DNA of 64,000 nt from Megasphaera coli (GTDB lineage Bacteria > Bacillota > Negativicutes > Veillonellales > Megasphaeraceae): positions 1,533,697-1,597,696 of the forward strand of contig NZ_FMIY01000002.1 in the NCBI RefSeq assembly GCF_900095855.1. The letters are read 5' to 3'. The number at the start of each line of letters is the position of its first letter. Position 1 is the first letter of the stretch. The translations under genes were made by a program, and so were the position numbers. The notes beneath the pieces were generated by a model. That model did no database searches. It had not been told where the DNA came from and was given only the letters and a program-made list of their open reading frames with translations. This document shows positions 21,384 through 64,000 of this stretch, piece after piece.

Positions 21384-21431
21384 TAAGAAAATCTATCATT
21401 GCATAAACATGAGGGGGAAGAGGACGCACAC

Positions 21432-24400: not shown

Positions 24401-26201
24401 GAAGAATTTGATTGATAATGATGAACACGGATTTGAACAGCGCATCCGCGTCGGCTTCGATGCGCGTCTGGGGAAAAATACGAACTTGAAGGCTCTCGGC
24501 AGCGCATCCGGTATGTCCGGTGTCGACACGTCATACGACATGTCCGAAAACAAGGGCTTAAAACACAAGCGTTTAGAGACGCTTGATTTAACGCACCACA
24601 CGAATAAATGGGACTTCTCCGTAGGCCGTTTGACAGAGCCGATGGGCGTAACGGGATACTGGTTCGGCAAAGAATTTGACGGTGCGCGTGCCGTGTGGAC
24701 CGGTAAACGTTCGCAAGTCCGACTGGGCTACGGCAGCTTTAAGCACAGTACGGGTATCAGTGATTCGCCGTATACGCACGTTATTCGGGAAAACTATATG
24801 CGCGTGCCCACGCTTGACGAATTTATCGGTCTCGTGTCGCGTGATGCAGGCATCAGCTTTGACGGTGAACGCCGTGTTGAAGGCGCTCCCAATACGATTA
24901 ACTTCTATCAGCAGCTCGAAGCGGCAAAGGCTGCAGGTGCATCAAGTGAAGAGTTATTGGGCATTATGCGCCGCATGTACGATATTGCCAAGGCTGCATA
25001 CGGGAATTACTTGAATGAAGCCGTGCTCTCGGAGACGAAATTTGAATTGGCATTATCTGAACGAGTACCGTTTAAGTATACCTATGAAGATGAAAATGGA
25101 GATGAACAGGAAGGTACATTCGTTCTTCCTCATGATCCTGCTTTTTACTATGATTCCCATCGTTTTCTTATCCCCTTTGATGATGCATCTCCCCTTCAAG
25201 GCAAAGCGTTCTTTGATTCCTGGTGGGCTGCTAATGAGGCCAAGGTTAAAGAATGGTACACCGATGCCGCTTATGGAGCCCTTGGAGAACGAGGGATCGA
25301 GGCAGATAGCGTAGATATTGATGTGAATGCTTTGAAAGATAAGATATACCGGGAAAACTTCGTGGATCCGTCGAGTAGAGACAGCTTATTCGAACGTCGG
25401 GATATGCCATATGTTATTAATCAATACTTCAGCGCGGTTGCCAAACGTATTCAAGAAACAGATCAGGGCAGCCAGCTGCCGCGTGAGGCCTTTAAGAAAG
25501 TCATTGGTGAAGTTATTCCGGCATACACGGCCGTTCTTGTAAAAGATGATATACCTTCATTGAAACGAGCCGCATTCATTCAGGCTAAACACGAGATAAC
25601 ACCGTCCTTCGGTGTTGCCGCATGGTATTTACGTTCCTTCGGTGATGATTATATGACCTTGCGGGCGACAGAAAGAGGAAACGAGATTCATGAGTTCGGT
25701 AAGCTGGCCAATATTATCGGTATCGGTATGAACTGGGAAATCGACAATGACGTGAACCTGTCCTTTGATTACGGTCAAAACCGCACCGATTTTGGCCGAT
25801 TCATGAACGGCAATACGCAGTATAGACATAAATACGGTTCGTCAACGTATGACATTATAGGCCATCAATCAGGCGGTACGCCCCATTTCTGGGCTGTACG
25901 CTTTGACATCGGCAAGTCCGACACGGACGTGCCGGGCAGCTGGAACGCTTTTGCGGACTATAAATACTTCCAGCACGGCTCCTTCTTCGGCGGGACCGGG
26001 GCTGAAGGAGTGCCCGACCGTTACCTCGACGGTATCCGCAGCTTTACAGTCGGTGCGGGCTACGTACCGGCGAAAAACTTCCTCCTTGAAGCGTTCTACA
26101 CCTTTGACGCGAAGGGGATCAACAAGCGTGACACCCTGTACGGACCGGAAAACTTCAAGCTCGGCAACTACACACGCATCCAGGCAACATATAAATTCTA
26201 A
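21432..26201 (+). CDS. Double-barrel outer-membrane receptor 1: TonB-dependent receptor fused to a porin-like barrel
   Basis: The ATG at 21432 (MNKKERRTRYMSRYIAL) follows AAGAGGAC, giving 1589 residues. The signal peptide ends MPVCA at residue 31. A TonB-box-like DVIVQAT lies at 41-47 and the plug domain at about 50-180 (SVEDIIFNETGVSRTV, GVSIRGAEPRHTLILVDG, GAASAKYGADAIGGVINVV). The receptor barrel runs to F901 with GNPDLKPEKSLNFDI. An Ala/Lys/Gly-rich linker (about 902-945) leads to a second beta-rich region (about 955-1589) starting GDYRLRWNAHDGSERP. That region ends in a typical barrel terminus, TRIQATYKF. Usual TonB receptors have 600-1000 residues. It is transcribed alone from the shared-type promoter. 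Substrate unknown. Confidence 0.9.
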   Translation: MNKKERRTRYMSRYIALTCAVVTWLAMPVCADNGGKATTKDVIVQATAAEEAAKYESQQTTIITKADIEKKQAKSVEDIIFNETGVSRTVDAMGRVGVSIRGAEPRHTLILVDGQRVMGDLAKYYGASDEVMRLGAENVDHIEVIQGAASAKYGADAIGGVINVVTKKAAKKPTLQFNAEGRRVNGNGDIAPYQNFFLRADSGDLGNLRLGLYGSKRDIMPVYASRQRSSSVMKSNVSNFEKNSLRFYGTAADTGLTGTYKINSLNSIDFRVDRYTEDLERYLKRSDSMMEPQQHFKRNMSRNTYGITWSGRDKGKTDWTVDANYTRTKEDDITLDSYYGKSSYEGKNKLDYVDDVDHKQISISATANTQVNDKHLLTYSVGYSREDGSGSRVKSAPNVHLKTIDPWDYDKNLFVISKESPLVEGKVGDVASDVHAYEMVRGADGIPRWNNDFEWYNYDRNVAGSKKPDFTYTEYKQYFPNGASVVAYDNLPSDVKRRADAFAGKIIAENPGKFDSIYAYSRNMTAIANYFEKLNISDVTFNGKVFKGAYTDRNNKVFVGEATIKKEFVVLQDLWQINKDTTVSPTLRLDHSDLFGSHVTANLGMTHNVGGNVHRRFKANIGTGYAEPGMGELYYNWEMYGGSPVGSDTARLGWYFIGNPDLKPEKSLNFDISIEGENKNTTARLNLFHNRIKDYMSIYFTGALMDFHPELNESSTWGASKFLYAPDMIYSFKNIGKAEITGLELEVKQKFNKHWSGKLGYTYLHAINKTDPTMPRQLLDKPVHKVDIGLSYENEKSGWSGSIWGDYYIRMLDSNTIGNNGNYMESYIAPDSVHSEIHYNFARQGAQTYERKTFGVWNFMIQKKFNKDSLAYFGIDNIFAHRDDDRALQDRVYRFGVNMKFGASGEESGDKAATSGNKANKADISAAAGAAGKETAAIAKTSGFITRPFEEGREKGIDFIGDYRLRWNAHDGSERPTAKVTFDSRVGSAEKNLIDNDEHGFEQRIRVGFDARLGKNTNLKALGSASGMSGVDTSYDMSENKGLKHKRLETLDLTHHTNKWDFSVGRLTEPMGVTGYWFGKEFDGARAVWTGKRSQVRLGYGSFKHSTGISDSPYTHVIRENYMRVPTLDEFIGLVSRDAGISFDGERRVEGAPNTINFYQQLEAAKAAGASSEELLGIMRRMYDIAKAAYGNYLNEAVLSETKFELALSERVPFKYTYEDENGDEQEGTFVLPHDPAFYYDSHRFLIPFDDASPLQGKAFFDSWWAANEAKVKEWYTDAAYGALGERGIEADSVDIDVNALKDKIYRENFVDPSSRDSLFERRDMPYVINQYFSAVAKRIQETDQGSQLPREAFKKVIGEVIPAYTAVLVKDDIPSLKRAAFIQAKHEITPSFGVAAWYLRSFGDDYMTLRATERGNEIHEFGKLANIIGIGMNWEIDNDVNLSFDYGQNRTDFGRFMNGNTQYRHKYGSSTYDIIGHQSGGTPHFWAVRFDIGKSDTDVPGSWNAFADYKYFQHGSFFGGTGAEGVPDRYLDGIRSFTVGAGYVPAKNFLLEAFYTFDAKGINKRDTLYGPENFKLGNYTRIQATYKF

Positions 26202-26366: not shown

Positions 26367-26439
26367 AAAGATAATGATAATTGGAATTATCACGCATGTA
26401 TGCAGTATTTGGGAAAACAGTTATGTAAGGGGGATGCAT

Positions 26440-29400
26440 ATGAAACGATCGTTTAGGCATGCTGAAAAGTATACTCTTTTGATGTGTGCCGTATTATCCT
26501 GGCTGTCCATGCCCGTTTATGCCGATAACGGCGGCAAGGCGACGACGAGAGACGTCATTGTGCAGGCGACGGCAGCGGAGGAAGAGGCAAAGTATGAGTC
26601 GCAGCAGAAGACAATCATTACAAAAGCCGACATTGAAAAGAAACAGGCAAAGTCTGTTGAGGATATTGTCTTCAATGAAACAGGCGTATCTCGGACGGTG
26701 GACTCAATGGGGCGCGTCGGTGTATCCATTCGCGGTGCCGAACCGCGCCATACGCTGATTCTTGTTGACGGCCAGCCCGTTATGGGGGATCTGGCGAAGT
26801 ATTCCGGCGCCGGCGATGAGCTGCAGCGCCTCGGTACGGAAAATGTGGATCACATCGAGATCGTGCAGGGTGCGGCCAGTGCCAAGTACGGATCGGACGC
26901 CATCGGTGGGGTCATCAACGTCATTACGAATAAACCGCGGAAAACGGCCGGTATCCAATTTAATATTGAAGGCCGGCGGGAAAAAGGGAACGGTGACATC
27001 GCTCCTTTCTCCAATTACTTCCTTCGTGCCGATTCGGGGCAAATGGGAAAATTCCGCTTCGATATTTACGGCAGCAAGCAGGATATCATGCCGATCTATG
27101 CCAGTGAGCACCGTAAGGTCAGTGTCTTATCTTCCGATGAAGATCACGGCTTTTTGAAAAATTCGCTGCGTTTTTACGGCACGAACTCGAATATGGGAAT
27201 ATTCGGTATATATGATATCAATAAAAATAATTCTCTTTCCTTTCGAGCAGACAGGTATACGGAGGATTTAGAGCGATATGTAAAGCGCAGTACTTCGTAT
27301 ATGGAACCGCAGGTTCATTATAAGCGTGATTTGGACCGCAATACTATGAACCTTACGTATAACGGGAAAAACAACAAGAGTACGTGGAAGACCGAACTGA
27401 ACTATGCGCGCGTTAAAGAAGACGACGTGACCTTGACGAGCGATTACGGCAACAGCACGTATGAAGGGAAAAATACGCTTAATTATGTGGATAATGTGGA
27501 TCACCGGCAGTGGAGCTTCGACGTTTCCGCCGATACGCAGGTAAACGAGAAACACCTGGTGTCGTACGGCTTCGGCTATGCACTGGAAAAAGGCGAAGGG
27601 AGCCGCTTGAAGAATGCCCCTCATACATACGTGCGCAATATTGACCCGTGGGACTACGATAAAAGCCTTGCCGTCAAGAACGGAGTCCCTTCTTCAACCG
27701 TTTACCGCCATTCTTTTGCAAAAAATAATGCCGGCGTCGAACAGTGGGATAAGGAAAAGGAATGGTATAACGGCAATAAAAACGATCCGTCTACGCTGCC
27801 GCAGTTTACGTATGAAGAATACCTGCAATATCTGGATCCCGAAGCGGGAATTGATGCTGCCGCCGTCATGGGACTTGTAGACGGACCCGTGACGGAAAAG
27901 ACGCTGAAAAAACGGAATCCCGAAGCATATGAAAGGTATAAACAGTTTGCCAAAACACTGCTGGAAAACAACCGGGAGTTTATTGAGGATTACCATAATA
28001 ATAAAGAAGGCCGGAAAGATGAGAACGGTCACTATTATCCGGCTCTGTATGACGCGTATTTACCTAGCTTTTATTACGGCGCCGTACCGGGGTTTGATTC
28101 GACGAAGCTGAAGCTGAACGGCGCTTATTTCAAAGAAGAATACAATAAGCGCATCAATCAGCAGACCGTCGGAGAGGCAACCATCAAGAAGCAGCATTTT
28201 TTCATACAAGATATGTGGCAGGTCAACAAGGACACGATCCTGTCGCCGATCCTGCGTCTTGATCACAGCGATCTCTTCGGTTCCAACCTGACCTTCAATA
28301 TGGGGATGACTCATAATTTAAGCGGTAATACGCACCGCCGTTTGAAAGCTAACATCGGTACGAGCTATACCGAACCGGGTATGGGTGAACTTTATTATAA
28401 TTGGGAAATGTACGGCCCGAATATTACGAACGCCACCATTGGCGGCGGCGAAGCCCGCCTCGGCTGGTATTGGGTCGGCAATCCGAACCTGCAGCCCGAA
28501 AAATCACTGAACTTCGATATATCCGTGGAAGGAGAGAATAAGAATACCTATTCCAAGCTGACCTTGTTCCATAATAAGATCAGAAATTACATGTCCGTTT
28601 ATAATACGGGTTATCTGATGGATTTTTATCCTCAGTATGATGAGTCGACGACGTACGGTGCGGCGAAATTTGCCCATGCACCCGATCTGATCTACAGCTT
28701 CCGCAATATCGGCCGTGCCGAGATCACCGGTGTCGAATGGGAGCTGAAGCAGACCTTGTCGCAACACTGGAAGGCCCGCTTCGGCTACACCTATCTTCAC
28801 GCCGTGAACAAGAGCGACGCCGATATGCCGCGCCAGCTCTTGGATAAGCCGCAGCATAAGATAGATATCGGTATCGATTACATCAATGAGAAGAGCGGCT
28901 GGAGCGGCAGCCTTTGGGGCGATTACTACATTCGTATGCTTGACAGCAACTCGCTGAGCGGGGGGGGGAATTATATGGTTTCGTATATCGATCCGAACAA
29001 TTCCGACCGTTCCGTCATCCGCTATAATTTTAACAACAGGCGTACTGCCGATATGTATGAGCGCAAGACCTTCGGCATTTGGAATCTGATGATTCAAAAG
29101 AAGATCAATAAGGATTCACTTGTCTACTTCGGCATCAATAATCTCTTCGGCCACCGCGATGATGACCGCGCCTTTTCCGGCCGGGTCTATCGTATCGGCG
29201 CCAACCTGAAGATCGGCAGCGATGCGAATACGAAAAAAGGGGCGGCCGTGGCGACAGACCGCGTAATGAGTCCCGTATTGCTGCTGGACTTTCTCAACCG
29301 TCCCTTTGATACTGAAAAGGCGGAAGGCGTTGAGGTTACCGGTGATTATCGGGGTCGTTGGGACAGTCATCTCGGCTCGGAACGCCCGGCTGCACGCGTT

Positions 29401-31458
29401 ACGGCAACAAGCTATGTCGATGCCGGTGCGGCGAAGAACCTGGCAGATAAAAAAGAACACGGCTTTGAAGGTCGGCTGCGCCTTGGCGTCGATGCGCGCA
29501 TCGGTGCACATACAAATGTTACCCTTCTCGGCAGTGCGTCCGGTCAAGCCGGCGTAGATTCCATGCATGAAACGGAGGGCTCTAAAGGGCTGAATCACCG
29601 GCGCCTGGAAAAGGCCGATATTACGTATAATACGGGCAAGTGGGACTTCAGTGTCGGCAGATTGAGCGAATCCATGGGCGTGACTGGATACTGGTTCGGC
29701 AAGGAATTTGACGGTGCCCGTGCCGTGTGGACGGGAAAACGTTCACAGGTTCGCGTCGGCTTCGGCGATTTCAGCCATAGCACGGGTATTACGGATTCGG
29801 CCTATACCCATCCGATTTACACGGACTTTATGCGTGTGCCGACTGTTGATGAATTTCTGGGGATCACGATGGATACGGACGGATCGAAGAAAGAGCTGAC
29901 CGTAGCCGATGCGGCGCCGACAATCAACTTCTACCAGCAGCTCAAGGAATTGCGTGCTCGCGAACAGGCCTTGGCGGACCGCGTGAAGGATGCGGAGAAA
30001 AAAGCGGAAGATTTGACAAGTGATATTTGGACGAAGGAAAATCTTGAAGGTGCTCCCGAGTCGGTGCTGCAGCCCATGCGGGAGGAATTGGCGCGTATTC
30101 AGGCGTCTATTCCCGTTCTTCGGTCCGAATATACTACGCAGCTGGAACCGCTGCGGAAAGCGCAGTTCGACGTCGTCCACCGTATGCAGGACATCGTCGT
30201 CAAGGCCTACGGCAGCGACACGGCTAAGCAGACCGTGACCTTGCGAATGCCCGAAATTCCCGTTACCTATACCTATCATGAACGCTATTACGATGAAGAT
30301 GACGAGCAATGGTATGATGAAGAACGGACGTTTACACAGAATCTGGCTCCCGGCGTAACGGGGCTGAATCAGAAAGATCCCCTCTTTGAACTGTCCCTTG
30401 CGGATATGTCCGTATTAGCGAACAACGGCAAGGATTATCTCGAAAGGTGGTATGACAATAATACGGCAGCTATTAAGGCGGCATATGAGCAGCGTGCCAG
30501 AGATGTGGCAAAGTTTGCATTTAACGGCAGTCCCTATACGATGCATATTGATGATACGGCACTGAATGACTTGAAAAATAAAATTTATCAGGGAAATTCC
30601 GTCGACTTGCCTGATTCAGGGACAAGCGGCAAGATTAATGTCAAGACAAGTGAGTACTATCCCACCTTATTGGCCGATTATTTCAATGCCTTGGCGCGTG
30701 TGCTGGAATCGACCGACGGTTACAGCAAACTGCCGCGTGAAGCCTTGGGCAAATACACGGGCAATGTTATCCCGTCCCGGGGCGTCGTCCTGCAGCGTGA
30801 CTATATCCCGCCTATCGACAGGGCGGCTTTCCTGCAGGTGCGCCGGCTTATCGGCAACAGGCTCGGCCTTACGGCATGGTACCTGCGCTCCGTTGGCGGC
30901 GATACGTATACGTTCCGTACGGCTGTCGGCACACATACGGAAGGTCGGGATTTCAGCAGTCTTGCCAATGTCTTTGGCATCGGGGCGAAATATCAATTAG
31001 GACGGAACGCTTCCGTTTCCTTCGACTACGGTCAAAACCGCACCGATTTCGGCCGGTATATGAACGGGCACACGCGGTATGATCATACGGCAGGTTTATC
31101 GGATTTCGTTATTCAAGGCAGAGACATGGGCGGCACGCCGCACTTCTGGGCTGTACGCTTTGACATCGGCAAGTCCGACACGGACGTGCCGGGCAGCTGG
31201 AATGCTTTTGCGGACTATAAATACTTCCAGCACGGTTCCTTCTTCGGCGGGACCGGGGCTGAAGGAGTGCCCGACCGTTACCTCGACGGTATCCGCAGCT
31301 TTACGGTCGGTGCGGGTTACGTGCCGGCGAAAAACTTCATCCTTGAAGCGTTCTACACCTTTGACGCGAAGGGGATCAACAAGCGTGACACCCTGTACGG
31401 ACCGGAAAACTTCAAGCTCGGCAACTACACACGCATCCAGGCAACATATAAATTCTAA
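26440..31458 (+). CDS. Double-barrel outer-membrane receptor 2: TonB-dependent receptor fused to a porin-like barrel
   Basis: The ATG at 26440 (MKRSFRHAEKY) lies 6 bp after AAGGGGG, giving 1672 residues; an ATG at 26434 touches the ribosome site and is rejected. The signal peptide ends MPVYA, followed by DNGGKATTRDVIVQAT with the TonB-box-like stretch. Plug and barrel follow to about residue 927 (GNPNLQPEKSLNFDIS, RQLLDKPQHKIDIGIDY). The second barrel begins at about 965 (GDYRGRWDSHLGSERP). It contains a likely external coiled-coil loop (about 1165-1240, LRAREQALADRVKDAEKKAEDL) absent in that form from receptor 1. The end is TRIQATYKF. It is a tandem paralogue of the preceding gene with its own promoter and terminator. 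Substrate unknown. Confidence 0.9.
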   Translation: MKRSFRHAEKYTLLMCAVLSWLSMPVYADNGGKATTRDVIVQATAAEEEAKYESQQKTIITKADIEKKQAKSVEDIVFNETGVSRTVDSMGRVGVSIRGAEPRHTLILVDGQPVMGDLAKYSGAGDELQRLGTENVDHIEIVQGAASAKYGSDAIGGVINVITNKPRKTAGIQFNIEGRREKGNGDIAPFSNYFLRADSGQMGKFRFDIYGSKQDIMPIYASEHRKVSVLSSDEDHGFLKNSLRFYGTNSNMGIFGIYDINKNNSLSFRADRYTEDLERYVKRSTSYMEPQVHYKRDLDRNTMNLTYNGKNNKSTWKTELNYARVKEDDVTLTSDYGNSTYEGKNTLNYVDNVDHRQWSFDVSADTQVNEKHLVSYGFGYALEKGEGSRLKNAPHTYVRNIDPWDYDKSLAVKNGVPSSTVYRHSFAKNNAGVEQWDKEKEWYNGNKNDPSTLPQFTYEEYLQYLDPEAGIDAAAVMGLVDGPVTEKTLKKRNPEAYERYKQFAKTLLENNREFIEDYHNNKEGRKDENGHYYPALYDAYLPSFYYGAVPGFDSTKLKLNGAYFKEEYNKRINQQTVGEATIKKQHFFIQDMWQVNKDTILSPILRLDHSDLFGSNLTFNMGMTHNLSGNTHRRLKANIGTSYTEPGMGELYYNWEMYGPNITNATIGGGEARLGWYWVGNPNLQPEKSLNFDISVEGENKNTYSKLTLFHNKIRNYMSVYNTGYLMDFYPQYDESTTYGAAKFAHAPDLIYSFRNIGRAEITGVEWELKQTLSQHWKARFGYTYLHAVNKSDADMPRQLLDKPQHKIDIGIDYINEKSGWSGSLWGDYYIRMLDSNSLSGGGNYMVSYIDPNNSDRSVIRYNFNNRRTADMYERKTFGIWNLMIQKKINKDSLVYFGINNLFGHRDDDRAFSGRVYRIGANLKIGSDANTKKGAAVATDRVMSPVLLLDFLNRPFDTEKAEGVEVTGDYRGRWDSHLGSERPAARVTATSYVDAGAAKNLADKKEHGFEGRLRLGVDARIGAHTNVTLLGSASGQAGVDSMHETEGSKGLNHRRLEKADITYNTGKWDFSVGRLSESMGVTGYWFGKEFDGARAVWTGKRSQVRVGFGDFSHSTGITDSAYTHPIYTDFMRVPTVDEFLGITMDTDGSKKELTVADAAPTINFYQQLKELRAREQALADRVKDAEKKAEDLTSDIWTKENLEGAPESVLQPMREELARIQASIPVLRSEYTTQLEPLRKAQFDVVHRMQDIVVKAYGSDTAKQTVTLRMPEIPVTYTYHERYYDEDDEQWYDEERTFTQNLAPGVTGLNQKDPLFELSLADMSVLANNGKDYLERWYDNNTAAIKAAYEQRARDVAKFAFNGSPYTMHIDDTALNDLKNKIYQGNSVDLPDSGTSGKINVKTSEYYPTLLADYFNALARVLESTDGYSKLPREALGKYTGNVIPSRGVVLQRDYIPPIDRAAFLQVRRLIGNRLGLTAWYLRSVGGDTYTFRTAVGTHTEGRDFSSLANVFGIGAKYQLGRNASVSFDYGQNRTDFGRYMNGHTRYDHTAGLSDFVIQGRDMGGTPHFWAVRFDIGKSDTDVPGSWNAFADYKYFQHGSFFGGTGAEGVPDRYLDGIRSFTVGAGYVPAKNFILEAFYTFDAKGINKRDTLYGPENFKLGNYTRIQATYKF

Positions 31459-54831: not shown

Positions 54832-55557
54832 ATGGAATCGTTACAAGAACGGGTGCAGGCTTATTGGGATAACCGCAGTGCCGACTTCAGTGCCGTGCGT
54901 CAAAAGGAGTTGAAAGGCATTGACGGGGCGGCGTGGCTTGATTATATACGGAAATTTTTGCCGTGTGAAGGTACGCTTGACGTTCTCGATATCGGCACGG
55001 GTCCCGGGTTTTTGGCTATTCTGGTGGCAGCCGCCGGCCATCGGGCCGTGGGTATGGACATGTCACCACTCATGCTGAAAGAGGCGAAGAAAAACAGTGA
55101 AAACTATGGTGTTCACGTTGACTTTATTCTCGGCGATGCACAAATGCCGCCTTTTGAGGAAGCTTCCTTTGACGTAATTGTCTCGCGGAACGTGACCTGG
55201 AACCTGCCGGACGTGCACGGTGCTTACACCGGCTGGTACGGTCTCTTGCGTCGCGGCGGTGTATTGCTCAACTTTGATTCCAATTACGGGCCCGTTGACT
55301 TTGCGGCCAATGCGGCCGAACCGAATAACGTCCATAACGAACTGGATCGGGAGCTCCTTCGCGAGTGCGCCGTCATTAAGGACTCGCTCGCTATCAGCAA
55401 GGAAGCACGGCCTCTGTGGGATATGTACAGGCTGAAGGAGATCGGTTTTACAGAGTGCCGCTGCTGCGGCGACATACGGGAATTCGTGCGCAAAGACGAG
55501 ATGATGCGGTATGATTCGGAGCCGCTTTTCTGTCTGTATGCGCAAAAGAAAGGATAA
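54832..55557 (+). CDS. Class I SAM-dependent methyltransferase
   Basis: The ATG at 54832 (MESLQERVQAYWDNRSADFS) follows GAAAGGTCG, giving 241 residues; an in-frame ATG at 54775 behind GGGAGGTGGGG is an alternative. Motif I is VLDIGTGPGFLAILVAAAGHRAVGMDMS. The post-motif reads FILGDAQMPPFEEASFDVIVSRNVTWNLPD, and LLRRGGVLLNFDSNYGP follows. A C-terminal Cys pair (ECRCCGDIRE) may bind metal. Substrate unknown. Thirteen bases separate it from a second methyltransferase fused to a copper-sensor domain, suggesting a shared metal- or metalloid-linked job. Confidence 0.9.
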   Translation: MESLQERVQAYWDNRSADFSAVRQKELKGIDGAAWLDYIRKFLPCEGTLDVLDIGTGPGFLAILVAAAGHRAVGMDMSPLMLKEAKKNSENYGVHVDFILGDAQMPPFEEASFDVIVSRNVTWNLPDVHGAYTGWYGLLRRGGVLLNFDSNYGPVDFAANAAEPNNVHNELDRELLRECAVIKDSLAISKEARPLWDMYRLKEIGFTECRCCGDIREFVRKDEMMRYDSEPLFCLYAQKKG

Positions 55558-55570
55558 GGAAATTTCTGCA

Positions 55571-56482
55571 ATGGATAAGGAACAGGTGTATTTTGATAAT
55601 TACGCGGAAAACTGGGATCGTGACAGGAAAGCGGATCGGGAAAAAATAGAGCGCTTACTGCGATGGTGCCGCATCGAGAAAGGCAGCCGCGTCCTGGATG
55701 CGGGCTGCGGGACAGGCATCCTTTTGCCCTATTTGCATGACCTTGTCGGCGCAGGCGGTCACATAGACGGTATGGACTATTCGGGACAAATGGTGGCAAA
55801 GGCGGTCAAGAAATTCGGTCATTATGACAATATCGACTTTATTGAAAAAGATATTTTGAAGTATGCCTTTCCCGATGAAATTTATGACACTGTCATTTGT
55901 TTTAATCTGTACCCGCATGTAAGCCGTCACAGGGAAGCGTTCGTCAAAAAAATCGCCAAGGCCGTCGTTCCGGGCGGACAGCTTGTCATTATGCACGATA
56001 TTTCGCGTCGGGCCGTACAGGCCATACAAAAGCAGGGGCCTGCCGATTCGGAAGAATTGTTGCCGCCTCTTGATGTAGTCGGCACGATGCTCGTCAGTGC
56101 GGGCTTTACCGTGACTGCCGCCGTAGATGAAGGAGATCTCTATTTCATTCGAGCGAAAAAGTTGCATGACATTGAATGCGGAGATACTCCGTTGAAAGCG
56201 CACGGTCATGCGCATACTCACCCTCATACGGAGACGAAGGCCGTTTTAAACCGTCTGGCCAGAATAAGCGGTCATATAGAGGCGGTCAAGCGTATGATCG
56301 AAGGCGGCCGTGACTGCACGGAAGTGCTGACACAGCTTTCCGCCGTGGACTCGGCCGTTGTCAGTGTGAGCAAGGTCATTTTAAAGGATCACATCGACCA
56401 TTGTATTGTCGACAGCGTGCGCCACAACGATATGGAAGCTGTGGAAAATTTGAAACGTGCTGTCAATACGTTTATGAAATAA
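55571..56482 (+). CDS. Methyltransferase fused to a CsoR-type metal-sensing repressor domain
   Basis: The ATG at 55571 (MDKEQVYFDNYAENWDRD) gives 303 residues. Residues about 1-200 are a class I methyltransferase (VLDAGCGTGILLPYL, MDYSGQMV, VVPGGQLVIMHDIS). A His-rich linker (about 212-222, HGHAHTHPHTE) leads to a complete CsoR/FrmR domain (about 225-303, LNRLARISGHIEAVKRMIE, VLTQLSAVDSAV). Cys249, His274 and Cys278 have exactly the 25- and 4-residue steps of the Cu(I) ligands C36/H61/C65 in Mycobacterium tuberculosis CsoR. The fusion could be a metal-sensing regulator with an enzymatic head, or an enzyme gated by Cu(I). DNA binding is not assured. Confidence 0.88.
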   Translation: MDKEQVYFDNYAENWDRDRKADREKIERLLRWCRIEKGSRVLDAGCGTGILLPYLHDLVGAGGHIDGMDYSGQMVAKAVKKFGHYDNIDFIEKDILKYAFPDEIYDTVICFNLYPHVSRHREAFVKKIAKAVVPGGQLVIMHDISRRAVQAIQKQGPADSEELLPPLDVVGTMLVSAGFTVTAAVDEGDLYFIRAKKLHDIECGDTPLKAHGHAHTHPHTETKAVLNRLARISGHIEAVKRMIEGGRDCTEVLTQLSAVDSAVVSVSKVILKDHIDHCIVDSVRHNDMEAVENLKRAVNTFMK

Positions 56483-57317: not shown

Positions 57318-57365
57318 GCGGCACGGCGGCATCTTTGGGAAGTACCTTTTGATAGAGGAGAGACT

Positions 57366-60300
57366 ATGAACGCGTACAGCATTTCGAGTTTGAGTGAAAT
57401 TTTGAGCGACGCCTTTCGTCAGGAGCGGTTTTTGCGCTTTGCCGGCATGACGGAGGCAGACATTCGGCGCCTCTTGCCCCGGGAAAAACAGGAGGCTTTA
57501 GCGGCCGCGGCAGTTACCGCCGTCGGCGAGGATGGGCGCTTTGATCTTGCCCTTATTCCGGACCTTATGGGGAAATACGTGGAAGAGATGCGCAAGGAGC
57601 CGCCTGTCGGCTGGCTGCGCTACTGCTATTACTACATATTGGCGCAAATTTACCCGGAAAACGTCGCCTTTTGGACGGATGACCGGTTGGAAGAAGTTCT
57701 GCAGGACGACCCGGTGTATAAGACGGGGCGCGTTTTATTGCTGCAGGTTCTGCGCGCACTCTTCCGCTATGAAAAGAAATATCTGCCCTTTGATCCGACG
57801 CGGGAAATGCATTTTCTTTCGGAAGAGGAAATCGTAAAACATGATTTTAATTGCGAATACCTGCGCCTGCGCGAAGTGATCACGGAGCTGTATATTTACG
57901 AGTTTATGCGCATCGGCAGCGTCATTACGCCCTTTGATACGCTCGGTCATGTCGGCGGTGTCCACTATGTGGCTACTTATGCGGCGCGGCAACTCTATCA
58001 TGCCGGCATTCCCGTCGATTTGGGTCTCGTGTCCGGTGCGGCCGCGACCCACGACATCGGCAAATACGGCTCGAAAAAGAGCGAAGAACGGCGCGTGCCG
58101 TACTTGCATTATTTTTATACGGACCTTTGCTGCCGCCGTATGGGTATCCCGGTTATCGGTCATATTGCAGCCAACCACTCTGTCTGGGACTTGGAGCTGG
58201 AAAACCTCTCCGTCGAGTCGCTTCTCCTCATATATGCCGACTTCCGCGTCAAGAGCAAGCGCGCAGACGGCAAAGAAACGGTCTGCTTCTATACGCTTGC
58301 CGAAGCGTTCGACGTCATTTTGAGCAAGCTCGATAATGTGGACGAAAAGAAGAAACAGCGATATCAGAAGGTCTATGCGAAGCTTGCCGATTTTGAGGCA
58401 TACATGAAGGAACTGGGCGTGCAGACGGATCTGCCGGCAGACTTTGCGGACGAACCGGCCGAATATACGCCGGCAGTGCGCCCCGAGGCGGTTCTCCTGG
58501 AAGGAGAAGACGTTGTTGCCGCCTTGAAGTACGCCGCCATTGACCACAACATAAAACTCATGAATATTTTCCAAAAGGAAAATGAGTTTTCCCGTCTTGT
58601 TGAAGCGGCGCGCAGTGAACGCAGCTGGAAAAACGTGCGCAATTACATCAGCATTTTTGAAGAGTATTCGACTTATATGACGGAACGGCAGAAGCTCATG
58701 ACCTTGCAGTTCCTCTATGAAATACTGGCCTATAAAGACGTGGATATTCGCATGCAGGCGGCACGATTGATGGGCGTTATTGTTGCCAAGTTTACGGAGC
58801 ATTATTCCAAAGAACTGCCCGAAGGCGTGACGCTGCCCGCAAAGGATGTAACCGGCGTGTCGCTCTTTGCCAATTACCTGGCCGTCATGATTAAGCCCGG
58901 CTGGCGGTTTACGTCACAGCACAGAACGTGGATTGCCTACTGCCTCGGCACCTTTGTGCAGGCCGTCCTGCAGCATTGTGACGATGCGGAACAGGCCGGG
59001 TACGTATCTCTCTTGCAGCCTTACTATACACGTTTCGACTATCAAAGCGAGACCTTTATCGTCCTTTTGACGGCACTCATGGAAGTGGAAGCCGTCCATG
59101 TGGACAAGTCTTTTTTGGAAACGGCCCTCGCGTTTACGGAAGCGGGTCTTTGCAGTGACGACACGAATATTAAGGTAGCCGCCCTGCGCTGCAAGGCGCA
59201 CCTCATTACGAACTATGACGAAACGCGGTATTTCGAGGAGCTGTTGGCAGTCCTCAATTTGCCGGACGATGAAACTACTGTTGCCGAAAGAGAGGGCACT
59301 CTCTTTTTGGATAACCTCAAGATGGGCACTCACTGGGTCATCAAAGAGGCCAATATAGAAATTTTATTGCACTATTTGCAGGCGTCGCCCGACAGGAGCA
59401 GCGTCATGCACTTGGGAACGCATTTGGCCAATGTCCTTAAAGTGAGCGAAAATCCTTTCGTTCGCTGTGCCGCCGGGGCTGCGCTGTTGCGCGTGTCTCA
59501 GTATATGTCCTATACGCAGCGCAACGAAATTGCCGTGGAACTCGTCAACGGTCTGAAGGTCGGCGACTTGCGCATATCCAAATACGTGCCTGAATACTTG
59601 GGCCATATTATTCTGCAGTTGTCACCGCAGGAATTGGATGAATGCGTTTATACGTTGGAGATGCAAATCCTCACGTCTTCTTCACAGGTGGCGTCATCCA
59701 TGATCCATACGGTCGGCGTCATGCTCGGCAGTTTCCATGAATTTTCCGAACGCTTCCCTGAAGATGCGGCGGAGCAGGAATTGCGCAAGCGGCGGCTTTT
59801 GTATATCATGCTGAAGGCTTACGCCCACTACGACAAGGAGCTCAGTCGCGATGCCTTCCGGCATTTGGGGCGCTTCGTTTTTGCCAATCCGGACCTGCCT
59901 TTAGAAGAAGTGGACTTCCTCTTTGTTCATTCGTATAAGAAGATACTCGTCCTTTTATCGGAAGAGACGGAAGAATCACTGGATTTTTACAGCAATGCTG
60001 CCGTACTGAATCATATTTACCGCTACATCGGCAATCACCAGTTCAGCACGGGCGCCTTTGTCTTTGAAGAAAAACGGAAAGTTTGTTTCTATCCGGGCAC
60101 GTTTGATCCTTTCAGTCTCGGTCATAAAGCCGTGGCCGTTCAGATTCGCGATCTCGGTTTCGACGTGTACCTGGCACTCGACGAATTCTCCTGGTCGAAG
60201 CATACGCAGCCGCGCCTCATGCGGCGCAAAATCATGAATATGTCCACTGCCGACAGGGAGCGAATTTACCCCTTCCCGGACGACATTCCCATCAACATGG

Positions 60301-62216
60301 CCAATCCGGCGGACTTGAAGCGGTTGAAGGAAATATTTGCAGGCCGCGATTTGTATATTGCCGTCGGTACGGATGTTATTAAAAATGCGTCCGCCTATAA
60401 GGTACAGCCGACGGAAGATTCGATTCATACACTCAACCACATTGCCTTTGAAAGAGAAACGCGTGAGAATACGCAAACGGGCGGCGACATGCCGCATCCG
60501 ATTAGAGGGAAGGTCATATCCCTGCTCCTCGATAAGTTTTACGAAGATATCAGTTCGACGCGGATTCGGGAAAATATCGATCTCAACAGGGATATTTCCA
60601 ACCTCATTGATGCGGTGGCGCAGAATTTTATTTACGAAAACAACCTTTACCTGCGCGAACCGGCGTACAAACATGTCTTTGAAGCGAAAGACATGGGCGT
60701 CGGTACCTTTAAAGCCCGCGGGCATGAAAGCCTCTGGCCCATTCAGGATAAGCTCGTCGCCCTGGGCTATTGTGCGGAAACGGTGGAAGAGTATATTGAA
60801 CGCGGTAACGTGCGGACACTGTACATTGACAGTGTTGACAAGAACAAAGCCATTATCGCATATGCGGCAGCCCACCATGTTGGGACGAAAGATCTCCATG
60901 ACGAGTTCGGTGATATTCAAATCGCCTCGCATATTCGCGATGCCGCCGAAGGCAGTGTGGCGGCTATCGGCTTTATTTACGCCGATACGGCAGCGGCTAT
61001 TGCCAATATCGGCGAAATCGTTATTACCGAGCTCATGTCCGAGCTCATTGCCCGCGACTATGCCTATGCCGTGTATCATCCCGTCGACCCGTCCGGCCGG
61101 AACGACGACGTCATCAAGGCTTTGAAGGATCAAGGTTTTACGGATATTGCCCCGCCCGGCGAAGAACCGCTTTATGCGGTGAGCTTGAAGGCGCCTGTCG
61201 TTATTTTCCGCGACGTCGAAACTGTGCTGAAAAATCCTTTTAATAAAAATCCGCGCGTCCTGCAGGTCCTTGATAAGGCCCATAAGCGCCTGCTTTCGGC
61301 TATGCGCCACATCTATCCGGGGAAACTCATCCTCTCTTTTAATACGAGCATCGTCCACAATAAGATCATTAAGAAGGCTGTGCGCCTGAACGGCGTGTCG
61401 GCGACACGCAGTGAAAAACGCCGCTACGGTCCGTATATGTCCGTTCCTTTCGGCAAAACGTTGAGTGATGTGCTCGTGCCCAACACGGTGACGAAGGCAT
61501 TGCACCTGGAAAAATACTTCAATCGTTCCGTCCAGGGCTTTACTATGGCCGAGTCGCGCTACTATTCGTCCGTTGACAATCAGGTGCGGACCATTAAGTC
61601 TTTTAATCGGCCGGTCATTCTCATTGATGATTTGCTCCATAAGGGTTACCGTATGCAAATGCTCGTGCCCCACTTGGAACGCAATGAGATTGATATTAAG
61701 GCTGTCCTCACGGGTGTCATGACCGGGCGTGCCATGGACATGATGACGGGCCGGAAGATTAAAACGGAAAGCGCATACTTTCTGCCGACATTGGAAGTGT
61801 GGCTCAACGAACGGGACTGCTATCCCTTCCTCGGCGGCGACAGTATTGAGAGCGTCGAAGCGTTCGAAGGGTATAGCTCCAATCCCTTTATCAACCTTGT
61901 CCTGCCTTACGTGAAGCCGGGATTTATCGGCGGCGGCGATGATAATGCCATTTACATTTACTCTATGATTTGTCTGGAAAACGCTCACGACATTATGGAG
62001 GTACTCCAGGAAGAATACCAGCGCATTTATGAAAAGCGCCTGACCTTGAAGCGCCTCGGTGAGGTTGTTACGCCTCTGCGCATTCCCGACATGGATGTGG
62101 GCGTTCACTTTGACGAAAATATGAATCCGTCCCGTTTTATAGAAAATGATATTGAGCGTTTGACGCGGCTCCGCTGGAAGGGCGCGAACCGCAAACAGGA
62201 AAGGGACGGGAAATGA
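57366..62216 (+). CDS. Giant multidomain protein: HD hydrolase, helical repeats, nucleotidyltransferase, GNAT-like and phosphoribosyltransferase-like domains
   Basis: This is a 1616-residue cytoplasmic protein without signal or membrane helices. Residues about 165-345 form an HD domain, with metal-site candidates H195, H200, H229-D230 (AATHDIGKYG), H266 and H271. Residues about 380-880 are alpha-helical HEAT-like repeats. Residues about 900-1110 form a NadD/CoaD-type adenylyl/cytidylyltransferase, with GTFDPFSLGH at 911-920 and SSTRIRE at 1063-1069. Residues about 1120-1290 look GNAT-like. Residues about 1300-1520 contain a type I PRPP-binding motif (VILIDDLLHKG, about 1417-1427). All visible key residues are intact. 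The stop overlaps the next start. Full-length function is unknown; nucleotide or NAD-type cofactor chemistry is the natural guess. Confidence 0.85.
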   Translation: MNAYSISSLSEILSDAFRQERFLRFAGMTEADIRRLLPREKQEALAAAAVTAVGEDGRFDLALIPDLMGKYVEEMRKEPPVGWLRYCYYYILAQIYPENVAFWTDDRLEEVLQDDPVYKTGRVLLLQVLRALFRYEKKYLPFDPTREMHFLSEEEIVKHDFNCEYLRLREVITELYIYEFMRIGSVITPFDTLGHVGGVHYVATYAARQLYHAGIPVDLGLVSGAAATHDIGKYGSKKSEERRVPYLHYFYTDLCCRRMGIPVIGHIAANHSVWDLELENLSVESLLLIYADFRVKSKRADGKETVCFYTLAEAFDVILSKLDNVDEKKKQRYQKVYAKLADFEAYMKELGVQTDLPADFADEPAEYTPAVRPEAVLLEGEDVVAALKYAAIDHNIKLMNIFQKENEFSRLVEAARSERSWKNVRNYISIFEEYSTYMTERQKLMTLQFLYEILAYKDVDIRMQAARLMGVIVAKFTEHYSKELPEGVTLPAKDVTGVSLFANYLAVMIKPGWRFTSQHRTWIAYCLGTFVQAVLQHCDDAEQAGYVSLLQPYYTRFDYQSETFIVLLTALMEVEAVHVDKSFLETALAFTEAGLCSDDTNIKVAALRCKAHLITNYDETRYFEELLAVLNLPDDETTVAEREGTLFLDNLKMGTHWVIKEANIEILLHYLQASPDRSSVMHLGTHLANVLKVSENPFVRCAAGAALLRVSQYMSYTQRNEIAVELVNGLKVGDLRISKYVPEYLGHIILQLSPQELDECVYTLEMQILTSSSQVASSMIHTVGVMLGSFHEFSERFPEDAAEQELRKRRLLYIMLKAYAHYDKELSRDAFRHLGRFVFANPDLPLEEVDFLFVHSYKKILVLLSEETEESLDFYSNAAVLNHIYRYIGNHQFSTGAFVFEEKRKVCFYPGTFDPFSLGHKAVAVQIRDLGFDVYLALDEFSWSKHTQPRLMRRKIMNMSTADRERIYPFPDDIPINMANPADLKRLKEIFAGRDLYIAVGTDVIKNASAYKVQPTEDSIHTLNHIAFERETRENTQTGGDMPHPIRGKVISLLLDKFYEDISSTRIRENIDLNRDISNLIDAVAQNFIYENNLYLREPAYKHVFEAKDMGVGTFKARGHESLWPIQDKLVALGYCAETVEEYIERGNVRTLYIDSVDKNKAIIAYAAAHHVGTKDLHDEFGDIQIASHIRDAAEGSVAAIGFIYADTAAAIANIGEIVITELMSELIARDYAYAVYHPVDPSGRNDDVIKALKDQGFTDIAPPGEEPLYAVSLKAPVVIFRDVETVLKNPFNKNPRVLQVLDKAHKRLLSAMRHIYPGKLILSFNTSIVHNKIIKKAVRLNGVSATRSEKRRYGPYMSVPFGKTLSDVLVPNTVTKALHLEKYFNRSVQGFTMAESRYYSSVDNQVRTIKSFNRPVILIDDLLHKGYRMQMLVPHLERNEIDIKAVLTGVMTGRAMDMMTGRKIKTESAYFLPTLEVWLNERDCYPFLGGDSIESVEAFEGYSSNPFINLVLPYVKPGFIGGGDDNAIYIYSMICLENAHDIMEVLQEEYQRIYEKRLTLKRLGEVVTPLRIPDMDVGVHFDENMNPSRFIENDIERLTRLRWKGANRKQERDGK

Positions 62217-63181
62217 TGTATATTCACGATTTACCCGGCGAAATCGGCGTAATTACACCCGTTTCGTTACGGGCTTTGCCGCAGCTGCGGAAAAAGAATC
62301 GTCTTCATATTGTCGCCCTCGGCGATGTGGGCATGACCATGCTCCTCGGTTTGCGACTTTTAGGCGGTGATGTCCTCGAGTATTGCGGTATTTACGACAT
62401 AAATGAGAAAAATTCGGAACGGCTGGAAATGGAAATGAACCAAATTTCCTATCCCGGCGGTGAAGGGGGCCTGCCGCCCGTAAAAATCGTGGCGGAGGAA
62501 GGACTTTTCGACTGTGATGTCTTCGTTTTCTGTGCTGCTAAGGGTGTTCCCGCCTTGGACACTGTCGGAGATGTACGCATGGCGCAGCTTGCGGCTAACG
62601 GGGAGCTCGTTCGGCATTTTGCGGCCATGGCCGCGAAGGCCGCCTACAAGGGCCTTATCTGCATCGTGTCCGATCCGGTTGATCCTCTGTGTAAGGTGTT
62701 TTTGCAAACTTCAGGGTTACAGGCCGTGCAGGTGCAGGGCTACGGTCTCGGTGTCATGAACGGCAGGGCGCGTTATTATGCCGAGAGAAACCCCGAGTTC
62801 AAACAGTACTTGACGGAAGGGCGCGTCTTCGGCCCGCACGGCGGGGATCTTGTCGTTGCAAACAGTGTGGTGCACTACGATGATGACGTGTCCCGCCGTC
62901 TGACGGATCTCGTCGTTCGTGCCAATTTGGCCGTCCGCGGCCTGGGCTATAAGCCCTATATTGCGCCGGCTCTTTCGTCGGCGGCACTGTCCGTTTTACT
63001 TACCCTGCGCGGCGACAGGCATTACAGCTCCCTCTGGTTCGGTAATGCCGAAAAAGGCGCGTTCCTGGGTCTGTGCAACCGCTTTACGCCGGACGGCGTG
63101 GAATATGAAGACCTGCCTTTGCAGGACGCCTTGTACGAACGGATTAAGACTGCCTATGTCCGGCTGTGTGAATTGTCGTAG
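62213..63181 (+). CDS. Lactate/malate-dehydrogenase-like NAD(P)-binding protein
   Basis: This 322-residue protein (ATG 62213, overlapping the previous stop) has the LDH/MDH fold order. The nucleotide site is HIVALGDVGMTMLLGLRLLGG with the acidic ribose ligand in GIYDINEKNSER. Next are VFVFCAAKGVPA, IVSDPVDPLCKVFL and the catalytic His in FGPHGGDLVVANS. The dinucleotide loop is atypical (GDVGMT for GxGxxG), and the substrate Arg of true LDH/MDH is not obvious. It is therefore probably a divergent dehydrogenase or a scaffold using NAD(H). Translational overlap with the giant gene implies a shared process. Confidence 0.82.
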   Translation: MMYIHDLPGEIGVITPVSLRALPQLRKKNRLHIVALGDVGMTMLLGLRLLGGDVLEYCGIYDINEKNSERLEMEMNQISYPGGEGGLPPVKIVAEEGLFDCDVFVFCAAKGVPALDTVGDVRMAQLAANGELVRHFAAMAAKAAYKGLICIVSDPVDPLCKVFLQTSGLQAVQVQGYGLGVMNGRARYYAERNPEFKQYLTEGRVFGPHGGDLVVANSVVHYDDDVSRRLTDLVVRANLAVRGLGYKPYIAPALSSAALSVLLTLRGDRHYSSLWFGNAEKGAFLGLCNRFTPDGVEYEDLPLQDALYERIKTAYVRLCELS

Positions 63182-63196
63182 AAAGGGCGGTACACC

Positions 63197-64000
63197 ATGC
63201 TCTATGTTATTCACCTGAGGGGGACGGGTTCATCGGAGACTCGCCTTGCCGCTATATTGCAGGCCGGCTTGAGCGGGACGGTATATGAAGAAATAAACGA
63301 CCCCGATGTGTTTTTGCTCCGTGCGGCGGATTTGCAGGGGCAGGCGTGTCTCTTTGCGATTTCCCTCGGCAGGGGCGGTGCAAATGATGCATATCATCGA
63401 CTCATAACGCTGCTCTATACACATACAGACTTTCTGGCCGGCGTATGTGCCGGCCTTGTTATAGACGGGCCGGATGAACTGTTCACAAAAAAAATGGGCA
63501 GAGAACTGCTCTTCATGGCCAATCGGGCAGGCTGTCTCTTTCCGGGCAAGCCTCTTGTCGAAGCGACGGGCTCCTTATATAACTTCAGCACGCAGGCAGG
63601 CCTCTTGGGCGTACATAAAAAAGAAGCCTATAAAAAGGCGGTTGCCGGGCTGATAGACAAGGTCATCTCTTTTTCCGGAACGGGTATGGGAAAAAGGGCG
63701 TGCCAACGCCTCCTTGTCTTACACGCGAGCAGTCGCGGCACGTCAAATACGCTCCTTTTGTGGGACATGGTGAAGCAAAATCTCGGTGCGTTCACAGAAA
63801 TTGAAGAGATTTCTCTGCGTGACGGTGAGCTCGTCGACTGCCGCGGCTGCAGCTATGAAACGTGTCTGCATTACGGCGAAAAAGGAGACTGTTTTTACGG
63901 GGGCCTCATCGTGGACCGCGTATACCCGGCAGTAAAACGGTGCCATGCCGTTCTTCTGCTGTGTCCCAATTACAACGATGCCGTCGGCGCCAATATGACA
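63197..64000 (+). CDS. NAD(P)H-dependent FMN-reductase-like protein (3' partial)
   Basis: The ATG at 63197 follows AAAGGGCGG; the frame is open to the window end (268 codons seen). Residues about 1-150 form an alpha/beta domain I cannot name (MLYVIHLRGTGSSETRLAAIL). Residues from about 172 match flavodoxin-fold NADPH:FMN reductases: LLVLHASSRGTSNTLLLWDMV, EEISLRDGELVDCRGCSYETCLHYGEKGDC and VLLLCPNYNDAVGANMT. The Cys-rich loop (C-x2-C-x4-C-x8-C) recalls iron-sulfur flavoproteins. It lies 15 bp after the dehydrogenase-like gene and completes a redox/nucleotide cluster. Confidence 0.82.
   Translation, partial: MLYVIHLRGTGSSETRLAAILQAGLSGTVYEEINDPDVFLLRAADLQGQACLFAISLGRGGANDAYHRLITLLYTHTDFLAGVCAGLVIDGPDELFTKKMGRELLFMANRAGCLFPGKPLVEATGSLYNFSTQAGLLGVHKKEAYKKAVAGLIDKVISFSGTGMGKRACQRLLVLHASSRGTSNTLLLWDMVKQNLGAFTEIEEISLRDGELVDCRGCSYETCLHYGEKGDCFYGGLIVDRVYPAVKRCHAVLLLCPNYNDAVGANMT

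Follow-up and report, generated by a model that had tools for sequence, protein, structure and literature searches.

A large HD–nucleotidyltransferase protein found across scattered Bacillota and its two conserved, predicted redox partners

We found that a gene for a large multidomain protein (gene A), carried by the 64,000-nucleotide stretch of DNA analysed here (the window), makes up one obligate biochemical unit together with the two genes that follow it, B and C. The best explanation for this unit, to which we give about an even chance, is a dedicated pathway in which A adenylylates a nucleotide other than NaMN, with hydrolysis or editing by its HD domain and redox steps by B and C. The initial annotation had treated A by itself, thereby missing both partners, which provide the strongest functional evidence. 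The arrangement in the window, where C starts 15 bp after B, is as follows.

57356..57360, + strand: AGGAG, likely ribosome-binding site of gene A, 5 nt 5' of the ATG (direct sequence read)
57366..62216, + strand: gene A, 1616-aa multidomain protein (open reading frame, Pfam scans, member alignment)
57813..58445, + strand: HD domain segment of A, residues about 150–360 (HDIG and NF045665 matches, conserved residues)
58443..60035, + strand: helical region of A with HEAT-like repeats, residues about 360–890 (Pfam HEAT)
60063..60665, + strand: NadD-like nucleotidyltransferase of A, residues about 900–1100 (GTFDPFSLGH 911–920, GTD 1001–1003, SSTRIRE 1063–1069)
60657..61214, + strand: poorly conserved alpha/beta segment of A, residues about 1098–1283 (Acetyltransf_1 in a few members)
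61212..62213, + strand: type I phosphoribosyltransferase (PRT)-like domain of A, residues about 1283–1616 (Pribosyltran)
62213..63181, + strand: gene B, LDH/MDH-family protein of 322 aa, its start overlapping the stop codon of A (ATGA) (Ldh_1_N, PDB profiles)
63197..64000, + strand: gene C, FMN_red-type flavoprotein, cut by the window end and continuing in the genome as a 369-aa open frame

A conserved three-gene unit

Surveying 54 loci with A in 52 genomes, two of which had two copies, we found B in 47 of the 54, on the same strand as A in every case (47/47) and no more than 423 bp away in 45, with B lying 5.4–5.6 kb from A in L119 and L120; C was found in 42 of the 54. C did not adjoin B in two Acidaminococcus loci (L024 and L025), as judged within the locus only. 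Among the seven A loci having no B, two are cut off by a contig border (L144 and L145), two are second copies of A (L129 and L135), and for the remaining three (L055, L137 and L139) B sits on another contig of the same genome. B was on a contig other than that of A in G463 and G464, and in G340 B and C were found together on a contig separate from A, which indicates that the A–B–C linkage outlasts physical separation. No upstream gene was conserved across groups in the 54 loci; the CpXC gene preceding A in the window recurred in 3 of them, and the other clusters near A were ordinary genes (RecG, phosphotransacetylase, serine dehydratase) in the examples scanned. Neither a base-making, amidating or kinase gene in the unit, nor a sensor, DNA-binding or effector gene beside it, was conserved over these 54 loci.

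Determining the occurrence of the three genes in a sample of 398 genomes from the phylum, we found full-length A in 8 genomes, B in 8 and C in 10, with 8 of the latter at E≤1.6e-49, and the sets of 8 with full-length A, B and strong C were identical, covering 7 genera in 4 families. Identical sets of 8 have a random-draw chance of 7e-17 for one pair of genes, a figure that ignores the relatedness of the genomes. The matches to A totalled 24, 16 of which were weak, short and confined to the nucleotidyltransferase or HD part, and the two weaker C matches, at about 1e-7, were apparently generic. Using 64 further genomes, we found B in 47 of the 49 that carry A and in 0 of 15 A-less relatives, several of these 15 being incomplete; the two A-bearing genomes in which B was not found, G462 and G634, are 79% and 84% complete. 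Over 39 loci the pairwise distances correlated at 0.85 for A–B, 0.87 for A–C and 0.82 for B–C, with species kinship not separated out, and 500 label shuffles of the A–B comparison peaked at 0.24.

Two genomes, G612 and G655, have two copies of A each and a single B. The partner-less second copy at L129 carries SPA in place of SST, and that at L135 has lost the PG, GxD, SST and Arg positions of the nucleotidyltransferase, with the HD residues intact in both. As a pair of cases only, these copies tie the nucleotidyltransferase activity to B and C, both being lost together.

Of 17 genomes in the family, 11 had gene A, as did 18 of 300 in the class of the window, there in two families only; the class of genome G391 gave 7/43 strong matches, and A was present in 8/46 and 24/291 for the classes of G107 and G212, respectively, the family and class samples overlapping in part. 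The A protein of Eubacterium pyruvativorans, which we take to be a member of the Clostridia, has 60% identity to that of the window, compared with 56–58% for Acidaminococcus, and most other sampled members outside the class of the window have 32–47%. With the Eubacterium protein being as close as those of Acidaminococcus, the sequences suggest that A has moved between classes. Outside Bacillota, no A was seen in the plasmid, phage and viral collections or in one pattern-limited genome scan. Plasmid cargo was rejected, as the single match in 72,556 plasmid records was a 2.63-Mb Acetoanaerobium noterae record that is probably a chromosome, and so was phage cargo, with no match among 50,697 phage records; viral contigs gave only two fragments of 32–35 residues on one contig. 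PADLOC returned no family for the four proteins searched (A from two members, B and C).

Domains and conserved residues

Gene A begins with ATG and runs for 1616 codons with no internal stop, in the open reading frame listing as well as on direct reading, and a frame of this length has a chance probability of about 1e-32 at its own base composition. The highest hydropathy mean over 19 residues was only 1.46, so that there is no clear membrane segment. The single continuous frame free of membrane segments that had been annotated initially was thus upheld, and the motifs placed at residues 229 (HD), 911 (GTFDPFSLGH), 1063 (SSTRIRE) and 1418 (ILIDDLLHKG) were all found there. The open reading frame is real and the same architecture, for which a wider search had been proposed, is kept across scattered Bacillota at about 32–80% identity. 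The host genome of the window is 1.71 Mb and 89.9% complete; judged by the A protein, Anaeroglobus geminatus (80%) is its nearest named relative, followed by Megasphaera micronuciformis (68%). The Anaeroglobus geminatus copy (L014:8001-12858), from a draft assembly, is split into two frames near the C-terminus, with B and C intact behind it. Two long antisense frames within gene A, at 57735–58802 (−, 355 aa) and 59976–62108 (−, 710 aa), are probably no more than shadows of a gene rich in G+C at third codon positions. Elsewhere in the window, two consecutive genes for TonB-dependent receptors of 1600 and 1694 aa (21399–26201 and 26374–31458, +) have a barrel match that stops near residue 890–925, followed by a C-terminal extension of about 700 residues with no Pfam match, and a 323-aa frame (55511–56482, +) combines a SAM methyltransferase-like domain with the metal-sensing repressor domain Trns_repr_metal (residues 242–319).

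In the window protein only CTP_transf_like exceeded its Pfam cut-off (36.6 bits, residues 908–1070), the HEAT and HD matches staying under theirs. Scanning 23 members at E≤0.5, we found CTP_transf_like in 23/23, HD in 20/23, HEAT in 20/23 and Pribosyltran in 12/23. Conservation in 50-column blocks was highest in the HD and nucleotidyltransferase segments (0.73–0.76) and lower, at 0.32–0.67, in the helical region, although a long HEAT-like region was kept in every full-length member aligned; neither Pfam nor NCBIfam named an RNA-binding domain in A. Of the five-domain fusion originally proposed, profile scans hence left the HD and nucleotidyltransferase domains as firm, with the HEAT-like and PRT-like regions as likely and the GNAT domain as weak. 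For the GNAT candidate, Acetyltransf_1 matched in 4/37 members (best 0.0048) amid noise-like matches in single members and the PDB profile search found nothing significant; residues about 1098–1283 are possibly a degenerate GNAT-like domain.

The HD residues H195, H229, D230, H248, H271 and D292 were present in 50 of 50 members, and H266 in 43 of 50. The H229–D230 pair singled out initially is thereby confirmed as part of a larger metal set, the extended H...HD...H...H...D residues of two-metal HD phosphohydrolases. A review links such a set with a site for two metals, of the kind found in YqeK (PMC8177086), and for the predicted two-metal site of A we infer which of the histidines would bind the second metal. 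Scanning 35 HD segments, we found HDIG in 22 (best 3.2e-5), NF045665 in 34 (best 7.5e-9) and TIGR00295 in 29, and a PDB profile search with the HD segment gave weak support (0.013). The YqeK model was absent from the listed NCBIfam matches of A and of the 35 HD segments (E≤0.1), and the NadD–YqeK fusion model PRK07152 matched A over its NadD part only. With no YqeK model among the listed matches, identity of the HD domain with YqeK was rejected.

The nucleotidyltransferase proved NadD-like throughout. In most A copies from 28 genomes the match to the NadD model TIGR00482 covers positions 2–194 of the 194 (from position 1 in one), at 31.2 bits for the window protein and 31–59 bits for the copies in the 28 genomes, as against a curated cut-off of 112.45, and a PDB profile search returned NMNAT and NadD chains (best 8.4e-5). 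A canonical NadD above the cut-off was also present in 27 of these 28 A-bearing genomes, the exception being G520, where none was found; with A itself far below the cut-off, a role as the housekeeping NadD was ruled out. The GxD and SSTxIR motifs are kept (G1001, D1003, S1063, S1064 and R1068 in 49/50, the exception being the second copy at L135), whereas in HxGH the first His is Ser (41/50) or Thr (9/50) and the last His is invariant (50/50). Aligning 18 members of A with 15 stand-alone NadD-like frames, one of which (G008) scores above the NadD cut-off, we found consistent differences, with Ser or Thr at position 917 in 18/18 members as compared with His in 15/15 NadD-like frames (the first His of HxGH), Tyr at 1011 in 18/18 as compared with Trp in 15/15, His at 1025 in 18/18 as compared with Phe in 14/15, and Pro at 910 in 17/18 as compared with Gly in 15/15. 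In NadD, the nicotinate ring presumably stacks against the Trp that corresponds to Tyr1011. The step for which the NadD/NMNAT fold is chiefly known is the one that yields NAD, and known acceptors of NadD-type transferases are small phosphates. The changed base pocket within a fold of this type suggests that the acceptor of A is a mononucleotide other than NaMN and that the product is a dinucleotide.

The C-terminal segment is likely PRT-like, albeit divergent. Pribosyltran was found in 25 of 37 segments at E≤1 (best 7.5e-5), the window segment scoring 11.5 bits with a cut-off of 26.3, and the PDB profile search gave nothing significant, with best plausible matches at E 0.29 and 0.41. The type I PRPP motif that had been seen in ILIDDLLHKG stood with regard to its two acidic residues, D1421 (49/50) and D1422 (46/50), which are not absolutely conserved, but not with regard to the phosphate loop, as H-K-G-Y-R follows where T-T/x-G-x-T is expected and TGxT is replaced by K-G-x-R (K1426 39/50, G1427 47/50, R1429 49/50). 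The pair N1373–T1374 is invariant (50/50). The segment may serve to bind a phosphoribosyl compound and have no transferase activity. As to the catalytic residues, the conservation of which the initial annotation had asked about, the metal set of the HD domain is kept, as is the catalytic frame of the nucleotidyltransferase apart from the set differences given above, and the PRT phosphate loop is altered.

Gene B scored 31.9 bits against a cut-off of 27 for Ldh_1_N and matched LDH chains in the PDB (best LDH E 1.2e-7). Mapping its residues by alignment to the LDH-like chain MGS-M5, we found Met182 at the position of the LDH catalytic Asp in 23/23 members, so that the catalytic Asp–His pair of LDH/MDH is incomplete; R122, R185 and the catalytic-position H209 (23/23) are kept, and an Asp38 within the glycine loop is invariant; the roles of these residues (Asp/Met182, R122, R185 and H209) we assume to be those of LDH/MDH. 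Gene C scored 74.7 bits for FMN_red, with a cut-off of 24, and has Cys 218, 221, 226 and 235 in 22/22 members, spaced C-x2-C-x4-C-x8-C, which differs from the Isf spacing. These cysteines are probably an iron–sulphur cluster site. The N-terminal part of C holds an invariant Thr-Lys, and a second conserved region, likewise N-terminal, carries no Pfam name.

Proposed function and alternatives

If the unit is such a dedicated pathway, the nucleotidyltransferase of A would form a dinucleotide by transferring a nucleotidyl group, in all likelihood the AMP of ATP, to a nucleoside monophosphate other than NaMN. The HD domain would act as a hydrolase on a precursor, on the finished product or on faulty product, in a role like that of YqeK next to NadD. 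The PRT-like domain might hold a phosphoribosyl compound, either for mononucleotide supply or as a binding module, this being a weaker suggestion, and the HEAT region would keep the catalytic modules together. B, of a modified LDH/MDH type, and C, with flavin and probably iron–sulphur, would supply or use reducing steps on the nucleotide. We favour this because of the linkage of A, B and C, the NadD-like nucleotidyltransferase with a changed pocket, the invariant HD set and the YqeK–NadD precedent, whereas we count against it the non-canonical PRT loop, the lack of a base-making, amidating or kinase gene, the Acidaminococcus loci in which C does not adjoin B, the genomes in which B was missed and G520; HEAT repeats, moreover, are unusual in small-molecule enzymes. 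A more specific form, with A–B–C making and using a new NAD-like dinucleotide of a non-nicotinate mononucleotide joined to AMP, for which B and C would be the dedicated redox partners, is a good deal more doubtful. The suggestion made initially, that one chain builds, edits and breaks down a nucleotide in the manner of the NadD/YqeK pairing, fits the NadD-like nucleotidyltransferase and the invariant HD set.

The combination of synthetase-like and hydrolase domains in a single chain could also belong to a regulatory make-and-break enzyme, in which the two domains would set a nucleotide signal, or the modification of a partner such as B, according to a redox state read via B and C. HD and nucleotidyltransferase domains share one regulatory chain in SpoT and GlnD, the redox partners are always present, and B keeps its fold signature and not the LDH/MDH catalytic Asp. 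We nonetheless consider this unlikely, given the NadD type of the nucleotidyltransferase, with its small-phosphate acceptors, the lack of any conserved sensor, DNA-binding or effector gene beside the unit, and the PRT-like parts that a signal would not need. That the unit modifies an RNA or protein bound by the HEAT region would agree with the long HEAT-like region of all aligned full-length members and is quite unlikely, since no RNA-binding domain was named and conservation peaks in the HD and nucleotidyltransferase domains rather than in the helical region.

Similarity to NadD over the full domain and the YqeK–NadD precedent could as well point to A being merely a bulky extra NadD/NMNAT for NAD synthesis or repair, which we judge improbable with scores that far under the NadD cut-off, pocket residues that are consistently different, and B and C, for which plain NAD synthesis has no use, accompanying A almost universally. 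An anti-phage defence system, finally, would suit the patchy distribution, exemplified by 11/17 in the family and 24/291 in the class of G212, but is very improbable considering that PADLOC matched none of the proteins, that phage records held no A, with viral contigs giving short fragments only, and that the conserved neighbours are redox proteins.

In the limited open-access literature searched, we recognised no paper describing A or the A–B–C unit, which is consistent with the undescribed pathway proposed at the outset; the parts are known folds and a NadD–HD fusion is already known, with no account of the whole unit recognised in that literature. Over large evolutionary distances, a divergent NadD/NMNAT with a changed pocket has stayed associated with a hydrolase domain and two redox proteins, alongside an ordinary NadD. 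Should A make a distinct nucleotide, gut, oral and rumen anaerobes would have a cofactor or signal that is new, and should the NAD-like dinucleotide be true, these bacteria would possess a second redox cofactor of the dinucleotide type, private to them. The residues and partners to be tested directly can be read from the sequences.

Comparison with known systems

Compared with the NadD/NMNAT family, A aligns throughout in GTFDP..xGH, GxD, SSTxIR and the closing helix pattern, but differs in having Ser or Thr for the first HxGH His, Tyr for Trp and His for Phe. The closest named matches of its HD segment are the DVU_1551 family NTP transferase (NF045665) and TIGR00295, in parts that we take to be HD domains. 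In contrast to A, the NTP-transferase part of DVU_1551 lies outside the match to the HD segment and is of a different fold family from the nucleotidyltransferase of A. B resembles the LDH/MDH family in its Rossmann signature, two Arg and catalytic His positions, and differs from it by the Met for the catalytic Asp, the invariant Asp in the glycine loop and SDPVD for SNPVD. C shares the FMN_red domain and a four-Cys cluster with the iron–sulphur flavoproteins of the FMN_red superfamily, unlike which it has its own Cys spacing and an extra conserved N-terminal region.

One report on mycoplasmas describes a NadD–YqeK fusion in which the YqeK domain proofreads the NadD products by hydrolysing aberrant analogues of NaAD (PMC9426524). 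As far as described there, this fusion, like A, joins a NadD-type adenylyltransferase and an HD phosphohydrolase in one chain, with the HD domain editing, whereas A has the reversed domain order with a helical region between the two, an altered base pocket, extra C-terminal segments and two dedicated redox partners. The NadD–YqeK fusion is the closest precedent for a possible mode of action of A, as distinct from proof of membership.
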